Source of the DNA: Paludisphaera borealis
GTDB taxonomy: Bacteria > Planctomycetota > Planctomycetia > Isosphaerales > Isosphaeraceae
Assembly: GCF_001956985.1 (NCBI RefSeq)
Contig: NZ_CP019082.1
Location: 3,410,001-3,474,000 of the forward strand
Length of the DNA stretch: 64,000 nucleotides
Reading direction: 5' to 3'
This document shows positions 30,171 through 33,131 of the stretch, piece by piece. Position numbers and translations under genes: made by a program. Within the stretch, counting starts at the first letter, position 1. Each line of letters starts with the position of its first letter. The notes below the pieces were generated by a model, which had not been told where the DNA came from, made no database searches, and worked only from the letters and a program-made list of their open reading frames with translations.

Positions 30171-32108
30171 GTGTCGCAAGGTCCCGCGCCGAAAAAGCAA
30201 GCCAGTTCCACCAACGACGACGCCGAGCCCTCGTCGGCGGCGCACGTCCCGGGCTCTCGCGACGCTTCGGCGGGCAATTACACGGTCGTCGCGCGTCGCT
30301 ATCGGCCGCAACGGTTCGAAGACGTCGTCGGTCAGGACCACGTCGTCCAGGCGCTTCGCAACGCGATCCGGCTCAACAGGTTGGCGCAGGCGTACCTGTT
30401 CTGCGGCACTCGGGGCGTCGGCAAGACGTCGATGGCCCGGATCTTCGCCAAGTGCCTGAACTGCGTGAACGGGCCGACCGAAGAGCCGTGCCAGGTCTGC
30501 GACATCTGCCAGGCGATCTCCGTCGGCCAGGACGTCGACGTGATCGAGATCGACGGCGCCAGCAACAACGGCGTCGAGCAGGTCCGCGAGCTGCGGCAGA
30601 ACGTCTCGCTCCGCCCCAGCCGGGCCAAGTACAAAATCTACTACATCGACGAAGTCCACATGCTCTCGACGGGGGCGTTCAACGCGCTCTTGAAGACGCT
30701 CGAAGAGCCACCGCCGCACGTGAAGTTCTTCTTCGCGACGACCGAAGCGAACAAGATCCCGATCACGGTCCTGTCGCGTTGCCAGCGGTACGACTTCGCC
30801 GGGATCACCCCCGAGGCGATCGTCGGCGCGCTCAAGGACATCTGTGACCGCGAGCAGGTCGACGCCGAGGTCGAGGCGCTCCAGGTCGTCGCCCGCCGCG
30901 CCGGGGGATCGATGCGCGACGCCCAGTCGCTGCTCGAACAGCTCCTGTCGTCGGGAAGCCCGAAACTGACTGTCGAGGTCGTCCACGGCCTGCTCGGAAC
31001 CGCCAGCGACGAACGGTTGCTGGGGATGCTCGAAGCGCTGTCGAGCCGCGACCCGGCCGCGGCCCTCACGCTGCTCGACCAGGCCGCGAGCCAGGGAGTC
31101 CAGGCGTCGGAGCTGCTGGCCGGCACGCTCGACTTCCTCCGCGACGCGATGGTTCTCTCGATCGGCGCCGGCTCGATCCTGCTCACCGTCTCGCCCCGCC
31201 AGCGCCCCCGTCTCCAGGCCGTCGTCGACGCCTGGTCGACCGATTCGATCGTCACGGCCCTTCAGATCCTCGCCGAAGCCCGTGCGCGAATGCGCGGCGT
31301 CGCCCACGGCAGATTGCTCGCTGAACTGGCTCTCGTGCGAGTCGCTCGACTCGAAGATCTCGAAGACTTGACCGAAATGGTCCAGCGGCTCAAGGCGCTC
31401 GAATCCGGATCGCCCCTACCGCCCAGGTCTTCGGCGCCCAGCTTAAAAAAAAAGCTAACGCCGACTGACGACGCCCCCAACCGCGCCCCGGAAGCCGAAA
31501 AAACCGCCGTGGTCGGTGCCGCCGTCGCCCCGGCTCCTCGATCCGAACCCGAGCGCGCGGCCGAAAGGCCCCGAGCGGGCAGCGGAACGGCGACGAAAGC
31601 CCAGGGTGTGAAAGAGGTTGCGACGGTCGCCCGGAAACCGGCGAAGGTCGCCGAGGCCGAGGACGAAGCCGGCGGGGCGCCGCTCGAATTGCACGTCGTC
31701 AGCGGCATCTGGCCCGACCTGATCAAGAAGGTGGGCGCGAATCTGGGATGGAAGTTGAGCCAGGCGATGCCGATCGGTCTGGACGGGCCGGACGTCCTGG
31801 TCATCGGGGCCAAGCCGGGATACAATTCGGTGGCCGACCTGTGCGGGACCGACGAGGCGCGAAGGCTGATCGCCGATTCCCTTCGAGGGTTGCTGCGACG
31901 CCCCTTGACCGTTCGCTACCAGCAATCAAACGCCGACGCCGACAGCGGCTCCGGCGCTCCCGCCGCCGAGTCGCGACGGGCCGACCAGCTCCAGAGCGAC
32001 CCGATGGTTCAGAAGGTCATCGAGCTGTTCGAGGCGCGGGTGTTGCATCTCGAATACGAAGGCGAGCAAGACAACGACGGCCCTTCGGCCGCGCAGGGTG
32101 CGGGCTGA
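30171..32108 (+). CDS. dnaX: DNA polymerase III subunit gamma/tau
   Basis: 645 residues, GTG start with GGAG nine bases upstream. Clamp-loader ATPase: Walker A GTRGVGKT (79-86), zinc cysteines C98/C107/C110/C113, Walker B/DEAD-type IDEVHML (159-165), SRC motif LSRCQRYDF. Domain III ends near residue 380. The tau-specific part (from about 430) is a Pro/Ala-rich linker and a C-terminal domain (GAPLELHVVSGIWPDLIKKV) that should bind DnaB/Pol III alpha. At codons 425-428 the gene has TTA AAA AAA AAG, a run of nine A, with stops at once in both other frames, so a shorter gamma of about 428-432 residues is probably also made. First gene of dnaX-ybaB-recR. Confidence 0.96.
   Translation: MSQGPAPKKQASSTNDDAEPSSAAHVPGSRDASAGNYTVVARRYRPQRFEDVVGQDHVVQALRNAIRLNRLAQAYLFCGTRGVGKTSMARIFAKCLNCVNGPTEEPCQVCDICQAISVGQDVDVIEIDGASNNGVEQVRELRQNVSLRPSRAKYKIYYIDEVHMLSTGAFNALLKTLEEPPPHVKFFFATTEANKIPITVLSRCQRYDFAGITPEAIVGALKDICDREQVDAEVEALQVVARRAGGSMRDAQSLLEQLLSSGSPKLTVEVVHGLLGTASDERLLGMLEALSSRDPAAALTLLDQAASQGVQASELLAGTLDFLRDAMVLSIGAGSILLTVSPRQRPRLQAVVDAWSTDSIVTALQILAEARARMRGVAHGRLLAELALVRVARLEDLEDLTEMVQRLKALESGSPLPPRSSAPSLKKKLTPTDDAPNRAPEAEKTAVVGAAVAPAPRSEPERAAERPRAGSGTATKAQGVKEVATVARKPAKVAEAEDEAGGAPLELHVVSGIWPDLIKKVGANLGWKLSQAMPIGLDGPDVLVIGAKPGYNSVADLCGTDEARRLIADSLRGLLRRPLTVRYQQSNADADSGSGAPAAESRRADQLQSDPMVQKVIELFEARVLHLEYEGEQDNDGPSAAQGAG
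31443..31468 (+). promoter_or_regulatory. Programmed slippage site in dnaX (A9 run with stops in both alternative frames)
   Basis: Nine A at 31445-31453 in a GC-rich gene. Zero frame reads on. The -1 frame reads GCT AAC GCC GAC and then TGA at 31466-31468; the +1 frame meets TAA at 31456-31458. This is the pattern of the Thermus dnaX transcriptional-slippage site, and it sits at the expected border between the ATPase/collar domains and the tau tail. Confidence 0.75.
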
Positions 32109-32154: not shown

Positions 32155-32517
32155 GTGTTCGGACAACTGGGAAACATCGCAGAACTGATGCGCAACGCGG
32201 GCAAGTTGCGGGATTCGGTCGCCAAGGCGACGGAAGCGCTTGGCCAGCTTCAGGTTGAAGGCAGCTCGGGCGGCGGCGCGGTGACGGCGAAGATCAACGG
32301 CCGGATGGAGATGATCGCGCTGCGGATTGATCCCAAGCTGCTGGCCGACGGCGATGCCGAGCTGCTCGAAGACCTGGTCGTCTCGGCGGTGAACGCCGCG
32401 ATGGTCAAGGCGCGCGATTCGGCGGCTCAGTCGCTGGCGTCGGTGGCCGGCGGCCTGCCGATGGGGCTGTTCCCCGGCGGGGACGCACCGATCGGCCCCG
32501 GGCCCGGAGGCTCCTGA
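32155..32517 (+). CDS. YbaB/EbfC-family nucleoid-associated protein
   Basis: 120 residues, GTG start preceded by GAGG. Small DNA-binding protein, dimeric in the family, encoded almost always between dnaX and recR. VFGQLGNIAELMRNAGKLRD, EGSSGGGAVTAKINGRMEM and DAELLEDLVVSAVNAAMVKA follow the family pattern; the Gly/Pro-rich C-terminal tail (PMGLFPGGDAPIGPGPGGS) is usual. Its stop is two bases before recR. Confidence 0.92.
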   Translation: MFGQLGNIAELMRNAGKLRDSVAKATEALGQLQVEGSSGGGAVTAKINGRMEMIALRIDPKLLADGDAELLEDLVVSAVNAAMVKARDSAAQSLASVAGGLPMGLFPGGDAPIGPGPGGS

Positions 32518-32519
32518 CG

Positions 32520-33131
32520 ATGGCCGGCTCCGGCTACGCGGCGGCGCTCGACCGCCTGACCACGACCCTGGGGCGGCTCCCCGGCATCGGCGCGAAATCG
32601 GCCGAGCGGCTCGCCCATCACCTGCTCAAGTGTCCCGTCGACGAGGCCCTCGAACTCGCCGAGGCCATCCGAACGGCCAAGGAGCAGGTACGCCATTGTC
32701 AAATTTGCTACCACCTCACCGAGGTGGATGCACCCATCTGCGGCATTTGCCGCGACGAGCGCCGCGATCCGAGCTTGGTCTGCGTCGTCGAGCAGTCGCG
32801 CGACCTGCTGGCGATCGAGAAAGCCGGCTCGTTTCCCGGCGTCTATCACGTCCTGCTCGGCCGCCTGGCCCCGTTGCAGGGGATGGGGCCGGACCAGTTG
32901 ACCGTCGACGCGCTGGAAGCCCGGGTCCGCGCCGGGTCGGTCCGCGAGCTGATCATGGCCACCAATCCCAACCTCGAAGGGGACGGCACCGCCCTGTTCA
33001 TCGCCAAGCGGCTGGCCGACACGTCCGTCCAGATCACCCGCCTGGCGCGCGGACTGGCCTCGGGCAGCACGCTCGAATTCGCCAGCCGCGACATGCTCGC
33101 CGACGCCCTCGCCGGCCGCCAGCCGTTCTGA
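32520..33131 (+). CDS. recR: Recombination protein RecR
   Basis: 203 residues, full length. Works with RecO (and RecF) to load RecA at gaps. HhH motif LPGIGAKSAERLAHHLL, C4 zinc finger C60/C63/C74/C77 (CQICYHLTEVDAPICGIC), Toprim domain from VCVVEQSRDLLAIEKAG through NPNLEGDGTALFIAKRL, and C-terminal Walker-B-like ITRLARGLASGSTLEFA. Start ATG 32520 follows the ybaB stop with two bases between, so translation is coupled. Confidence 0.97.
   Translation: MAGSGYAAALDRLTTTLGRLPGIGAKSAERLAHHLLKCPVDEALELAEAIRTAKEQVRHCQICYHLTEVDAPICGICRDERRDPSLVCVVEQSRDLLAIEKAGSFPGVYHVLLGRLAPLQGMGPDQLTVDALEARVRAGSVRELIMATNPNLEGDGTALFIAKRLADTSVQITRLARGLASGSTLEFASRDMLADALAGRQPF

Follow-up and report, generated by a model that had tools for sequence, protein, structure and literature searches.

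A conserved A9/A10 run with flanking stops in the dnaX gene of Planctomycetia as a probable programmed slippage site

Results

The 64-kb stretch of the Paludisphaera borealis genome analysed here (the window) carries a dnaX gene whose open frame runs from a GTG at 30171 to a TGA ending at 32108 and is followed by ybaB and recR, in the same gene order as in E. coli. The locus comprises the following features.

30171..32108, plus strand: dnaX, GTG start, zero frame encoding tau (645 aa); TIGR02397, 442 bits against a cut-off of 250
30330..31391, plus strand: DnaX domains I-III (residues 54-407), common to gamma and tau; Pfam PF13177, PF22608 and PF12169
31445..31453, plus strand: A9 run, putative slippage site, zero frame TTA AAA AAA AAG; read from the sequence, conserved in family and class as A9/A10
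31456..31458, plus strand: TAA, first stop of the +1 frame (one A lost), predicted to end a gamma-like protein of 428 aa; frame reading
31466..31468, plus strand: TGA, first stop of the -1 frame (one A gained, or a ribosomal -1 shift), predicted to end a gamma-like protein of 432 aa; frame reading
31454..32105, plus strand: linker and tau-specific C-terminal part, zero frame only; frame reading
32155..32517, plus strand: ybaB/ebfC, downstream neighbour; TIGR00103, 71.8 bits against a cut-off of 49.45
32520..33131, plus strand: recR, neighbour after ybaB; TIGR00615, 217 bits against a cut-off of 162.55

Domain III (PF12169) covers DnaX residues 267-407 by Pfam assignment, and the A9 run begins eighteen codons farther on, at codon 425, in the zero-frame context TTA AAA AAA AAG CTA ACG, with TAA ending 5 nt and TGA 15 nt after the run. 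Read through to these stops, the predicted gamma ends consist of 424 codons plus LKKS upon loss of one A (428 aa) and of 424 codons plus LKKKANAD upon gain of one (432 aa). The initial annotation had given the A9 and both stops at exactly these positions, and its estimate of slip products of about 428-432 residues, as opposed to 645 for tau, is confirmed by the frames. Its remark that the run uses rare codons is likewise borne out by the codon use of the window genes, counted over five stretches with the slippage site excluded, where AAA accounts for 10 of 65 lysine codons and the two leucine codons that frame the run, TTA and CTA, for 2 of 206 each.

There is no second A9 on either strand of the window (shuffle mean 0.02), and a search of the whole 7.65 Mb genome returned 12 matches that correspond to 11 distinct runs. 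Over the 10 other genomic A9 runs, the longest open frame stays below 250 codons in seven cases and is longer in three (L033, L034 and L042). In L033 57-1517 (C1:1888237-1888245), the A9 sits in the last codons of a 486-aa ORF, whose Gly/Met-rich tail finishes on QKKSN and the stop.

To follow the run through the planctomycetes, we compared the region behind domain III in the dnaX genes of relatives, 67 of the loci being anchored by match coordinates. In the window genome's own family, the Isosphaeraceae, an A9 or A10 follows domain III in 30 of 42 genomes, against 0.20 expected under a first-order Markov model; carriers include Singulisphaera acidiphila (A9; Isosphaeraceae, Isosphaerales, Planctomycetia) and Aquisphaera insulae (A10). 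This sample represents 42 of 45 genomes, three of which lacked a usable dnaX end (G013, G014 and G015), and retains one locus cut by a contig end (L128). Among the other families of the class Planctomycetia, the run is found at the same place in 75 of 98 sampled genomes, and the first 81 of these contained 60 carriers where a first-order Markov model built on these stretches gives 1.02; A9 makes up 44 of the 75 class runs, and one A8 and four A7 occur among the 23 run-less genomes. The class figures derive from 99 of 116 non-family genomes, reduced to 98 by dropping a locus cut by a contig end (L225); two of the 99 were supplied by the fetching tool, and the other 97 were picked mostly in match-table order, with several of one over-sampled genus skipped and each picked before its linker had been read. 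The last 17 genomes were added once the first class counts were known.

Codon choice for a given peptide does not account for these numbers. Given the amino acids and the codon usage of its own gene, the run has a median probability of 0.0032 per family gene, and synonymous codon usage predicts 0.77 runs in the family and 4.3 in the class, as opposed to the 30 and 60 seen. Across family and class carriers the run is 9 or 10 nucleotides long and starts in all three codon phases, so that the peptide it encodes changes from EKKK, VKKK or AKKK in the family to EKKN, QKKT, QKKS and others in the class. With length, phase and peptide all variable, selection acts on the nucleotide run itself rather than on any one peptide, and its conservation in Planctomycetia is not due to chance.

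Beyond the class, the picture is different: A9 or longer runs occur in 9 of 80 sampled genomes from the rest of the phylum, as compared to 2.30 expected (80 of 108 non-class genomes were sampled, with L242 and L302 counted although cut by contig ends), and we therefore dropped the idea of phylum-wide conservation. At 14 loci with verrucomicrobial names, there is no run of at least seven A's at the dnaX site. The conservation signal is thus strong at the level of the class, with scattered cases beyond it.

The stops in the two shifted frames are conserved together with the run. Stops within 45 nt in both frames are found in 25 of 30 family carriers, where a within-gene null gives 1.76 and synonymous resampling 2.5, and in 55 of the 60 class carriers on which the class nulls and the Shine-Dalgarno (SD) count below are based (within-gene 7.96, synonymous 12.7); the addition of 15 further carriers brought the class count to 68 of 75. 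Thinning to one sequence per cluster below 60% identity over the 60 nt after the run leaves 86 of 96 with both near stops. Taken separately, both frames are enriched: near -1 stops (again within 45 nt) occur in 27 of 30 family and 59 of 60 class carriers (within-gene 6.5 and 21.2, synonymous 10.8 and 34.9), near +1 stops in 28 of 30 and 56 of 60 (within-gene 6.9 and 21.0, synonymous 8.1 and 21.8). One of the two near stops is absent in five of the 30 family and seven of the 75 class carriers, and, in the phylum sample, L283 was excluded from the stop count, as its zero frame ends 11 nt past the run. The zero frame itself stays open for more than 150 nt beyond the run in all 105 family and class carriers. 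The comparison of related planctomycete dnaX genes proposed in the initial annotation thus finds the A-run and its flanking stops conserved in most of them, and the carrier frequencies, together with two-sided stops far above two nulls, lend strong support to its claim of a conserved programmed slippage site.

We then considered the signals by which slippage during transcription and during translation can be told apart. An SD-like motif upstream of the run is present in one of 30 family carriers (4.4 expected) and in five of 60 class carriers (5.0 expected), and in the window none was found by a test that detects AGGGAG in E. coli dnaX. For downstream hairpins, we ranked the most stable fold directly after the run among the folds found elsewhere in that gene: the window scores 0.84 (-6.4 kcal/mol), as compared to 0.02 (-19.1 kcal/mol) for the E. 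coli dnaX control, and the ranks just after the run average 0.60 in the family and 0.53 in the class, with values of 0.05 or less in only one of 30 and four of 75 carriers, respectively. A folding test by z-score against shuffles was set aside, as the E. coli hairpin, although known to exist, escaped it (z 0.10). Furthermore, AAG is the closing codon in only 27 of the 105 runs, and ARAGORN locates a tRNA-Lys(CUU) gene in the genome. Searches with two patterns gave no tRNA-Lys(UUU), although it may lie among the 37 of 67 tRNA hits that came without loci. A dense cluster of 17 same-strand tRNA family hits occupies about 2 kb at C1:1528259-1530276, outside the window.

The genus of the window genome, which includes a genome of Paludisphaera soli with no run, departs from the family pattern, as the run is absent in all five other sampled Paludisphaera genomes; two further Isosphaeraceae clades also lack it. 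In a tree of domains I-III (43 rows; L131 was too short to be placed), the run trait requires three changes, where shuffled traits require 9.9 on average and none of 500 shuffles is as low, and the window genome comes out as sister to the five run-less congeners. This topology suggests a single loss in the ancestor of the five, with the run retained in the window lineage. In the three run-less congeners with an alignable site (L003, L004 and L005), the KKK peptide remains, whereas the first shifted-frame stops end 88-632 nt away, as compared to 5 and 15 nt in the window. The run, its position and two stops, their joint conservation in the class and their joint absence in these three congeners are direct observations, and to be missing together is what a shared function of run and near stops predicts. 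Absence of the run from close relatives, named in the initial annotation as part of what would refute it, is thus seen in five of five congeners, although the run is conserved family- and class-wide; since a single ancestral loss is the simplest account and the near stops have gone too in three genomes, the absence from congeners does not refute a function. Together with the two Isosphaeraceae clades and the run-less class genomes, it rather indicates that gamma made in this way is dispensable in some lineages.

A reversed arrangement occurs elsewhere in the phylum. In four relatives labelled Phycisphaerae or Phycisphaerales (L081, L098, L104 and L106), an A10 is followed within 10-34 nt by a stop in the zero frame, and the long tau-like tail lies in the -1 frame; full-length DnaX would apparently depend on recoding here. 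These four belong to 17 run-bearing named relatives outside the family (17 of 18 such loci were checked, L088 being omitted as its contig breaks off shortly beyond the run). Of the others, seven encode the tau tail in the zero frame, five show a zero frame that extends 121-295 nt past the run and no frame longer than it, and L096 stands outside these groupings. In six loci of the phylum sample (L271, L279, L293, L296, L300 and L304), the DnaX zero frame ends 14-29 codons past the matched domains I-III, with no run of at least eight A's; L271 has a tau-tail-like motif downstream in the +1 frame, and a simple pattern found none in the other five.

Discussion

We propose that the A9 is a programmed slippage site, with polymerase stuttering as the likely source of both tau and a gamma-like subunit; that a single dnaX gene supplies a long as well as a short subunit of the clamp loader is in our view very probable. 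RNA polymerase would stutter on the A9 and release dnaX mRNAs with nine A's alongside others with at least one A fewer or extra; in-frame messages (9, 12 ... A's) would be translated into the 645-aa tau, and out-of-frame messages would reach TAA or TGA, so that translation would end after about 428-432 aa and yield a gamma-like clamp-loader subunit that has domains I-III and lacks the tau tail. Such insertions and deletions in the mRNA are in keeping with stops in both shifted frames. That the slip is transcriptional rather than ribosomal, that it occurs at a useful frequency and that the resulting gamma serves in the clamp loader is what we infer from these patterns.

The arrangement closely resembles that of Thermus, whose dnaX is described in passages of PMC1088944, PMC4320859 and PMC5009743 as a single ORF for tau with an A9, close stops in both other frames and a shorter gamma. 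The window dnaX shares with it the A9 between domain III and the tau tail, the single open frame and the near stops in both shifted frames, and local fold and SD tests found no stimulator of either kind in the window. Thermus has two lysine tRNAs, and tRNA-Lys(CUU) is found in the window genome; according to passages of PMC5009743, a separate tRNA-Lys(CUU) has been offered as a reason why Thermus slips in transcription. The two systems also differ: the planctomycete run lies about two-thirds through the gene, whereas that of Thermus lies seven-eighths along it, according to PMC1088944. Planctomycetes have A9 or A10 where Thermus has A9, and slippage is reported as shown in Thermus, whereas we infer it in planctomycetes.

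The principal alternative is ribosomal -1 frameshifting of the kind known from E. coli dnaX, where two lysyl-tRNAs would slip back at A_AAA_AAG and the ribosome would terminate at TGA 31466-31468. Gene and gene order are the same, the run again sits about two-thirds through the gene, A_AAA_AAG, the strongly shift-prone form in E. coli according to passages of PMC5009743, is in frame in the window, and a -1 stop ends 15 nt past the run, as near -1 stops do in nearly all family and class carriers. E. coli dnaX, however, combines six A's and a G with an upstream AGGGAG, a stable hairpin and a -1 stop ending 6 nt on, whereas the window has nine A's, no AGGGAG-like motif or hairpin found by tests that detect both in E. 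coli, and an additional +1 stop ending 5 nt on. Furthermore, +1 stops are enriched throughout (28/30 over 6.9-8.1 and 56/60 over 21.0-21.8), although a -1 shift has no need of them, the runs are 9-10 nucleotides long, 78 of 105 do not end in AAG, and the presence of tRNA-Lys(CUU) means that AAG is not left to a sole tRNA-Lys(UUU) that pairs weakly with it. We consider this reading improbable. The lack of an SD or hairpin signal, the presence of tRNA-Lys(CUU) and the prospect of gamma from slips in either direction favour transcriptional slippage as in Thermus, so that of the two mechanisms named in the initial annotation the SD, hairpin, tRNA and stop tests speak for the former and against E. 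coli-like -1 shifting.

Undirected sliding of ribosomes on poly(A) lysine codons would likewise be bidirectional, populate both frames and thereby give gamma, and would require neither an SD motif nor a hairpin; passages of PMC4363877 describe such sliding for E. coli ribosomes, robust at A11 and with little product at A9, and it is A9 that most class runs are, which leaves this explanation quite unlikely. Less probable still is phase variation at the DNA level, in which chromosomal gain or loss of an A would switch cells between tau and gamma only: an intragenic homopolymer followed by stops in both alternative frames would suit it, but the zero frame is open past the run in every one of the 105 carriers. 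Moreover, A9-A10 is short for a contingency locus, and DnaX tau is expected to be essential. Least probable, to the point of being negligible, is an account that does without recoding and invokes chance or the conservation of a lysine-rich peptide: KKK does persist in the run-less congeners, but codon choice and flanking stops lie far above the synonymous nulls and the peptide changes with phase while the run stays.

Transcriptional slippage in Thermus thermophilus dnaX was reportedly described by Larsen et al. in 2000. Both it and two-ORF dnaX genes with poly-A are already in print: in passages of the GeneTack study (PMC3711429), the two-ORF form comprises 17 genes, nine of them with 10 A's, and the nine species are given in its supplement. 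The four relatives with a reversed arrangement resemble this two-ORF form, in contrast to the window, where tau lies in the zero frame and slippage would yield gamma rather than tau. Among the titles, abstracts and passages covered by our search, whose scope excluded most subscription papers and all supplements, we recognised no report of dnaX slippage in planctomycetes.

Taken together, we think it likely that gamma production by slippage is the ancestral state of dnaX in Planctomycetia, maintained ever since the class arose by selection on an A9/A10 alone, with its phase and peptide free to drift, and lost three times in the Isosphaeraceae, once of these in the genus of the window genome along with the flanking stops, whereas elsewhere in the phylum an A10 would have been put to reversed use, with tau dependent on slippage. 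As far as we know, Thermus dnaX has so far been the main example of a cellular replication gene with programmed transcriptional slippage. A case conserved across a class would show slippage to be a common route to gamma and tau from one gene, and the solutions known from E. coli and Thermus would be joined by that of a well-sampled group, the planctomycetes. If the proposal is true, sister species that have kept or lost the site would constitute a natural experiment on the purpose of gamma, and the loss in the sister clade would make its debated role testable by comparison of close relatives.
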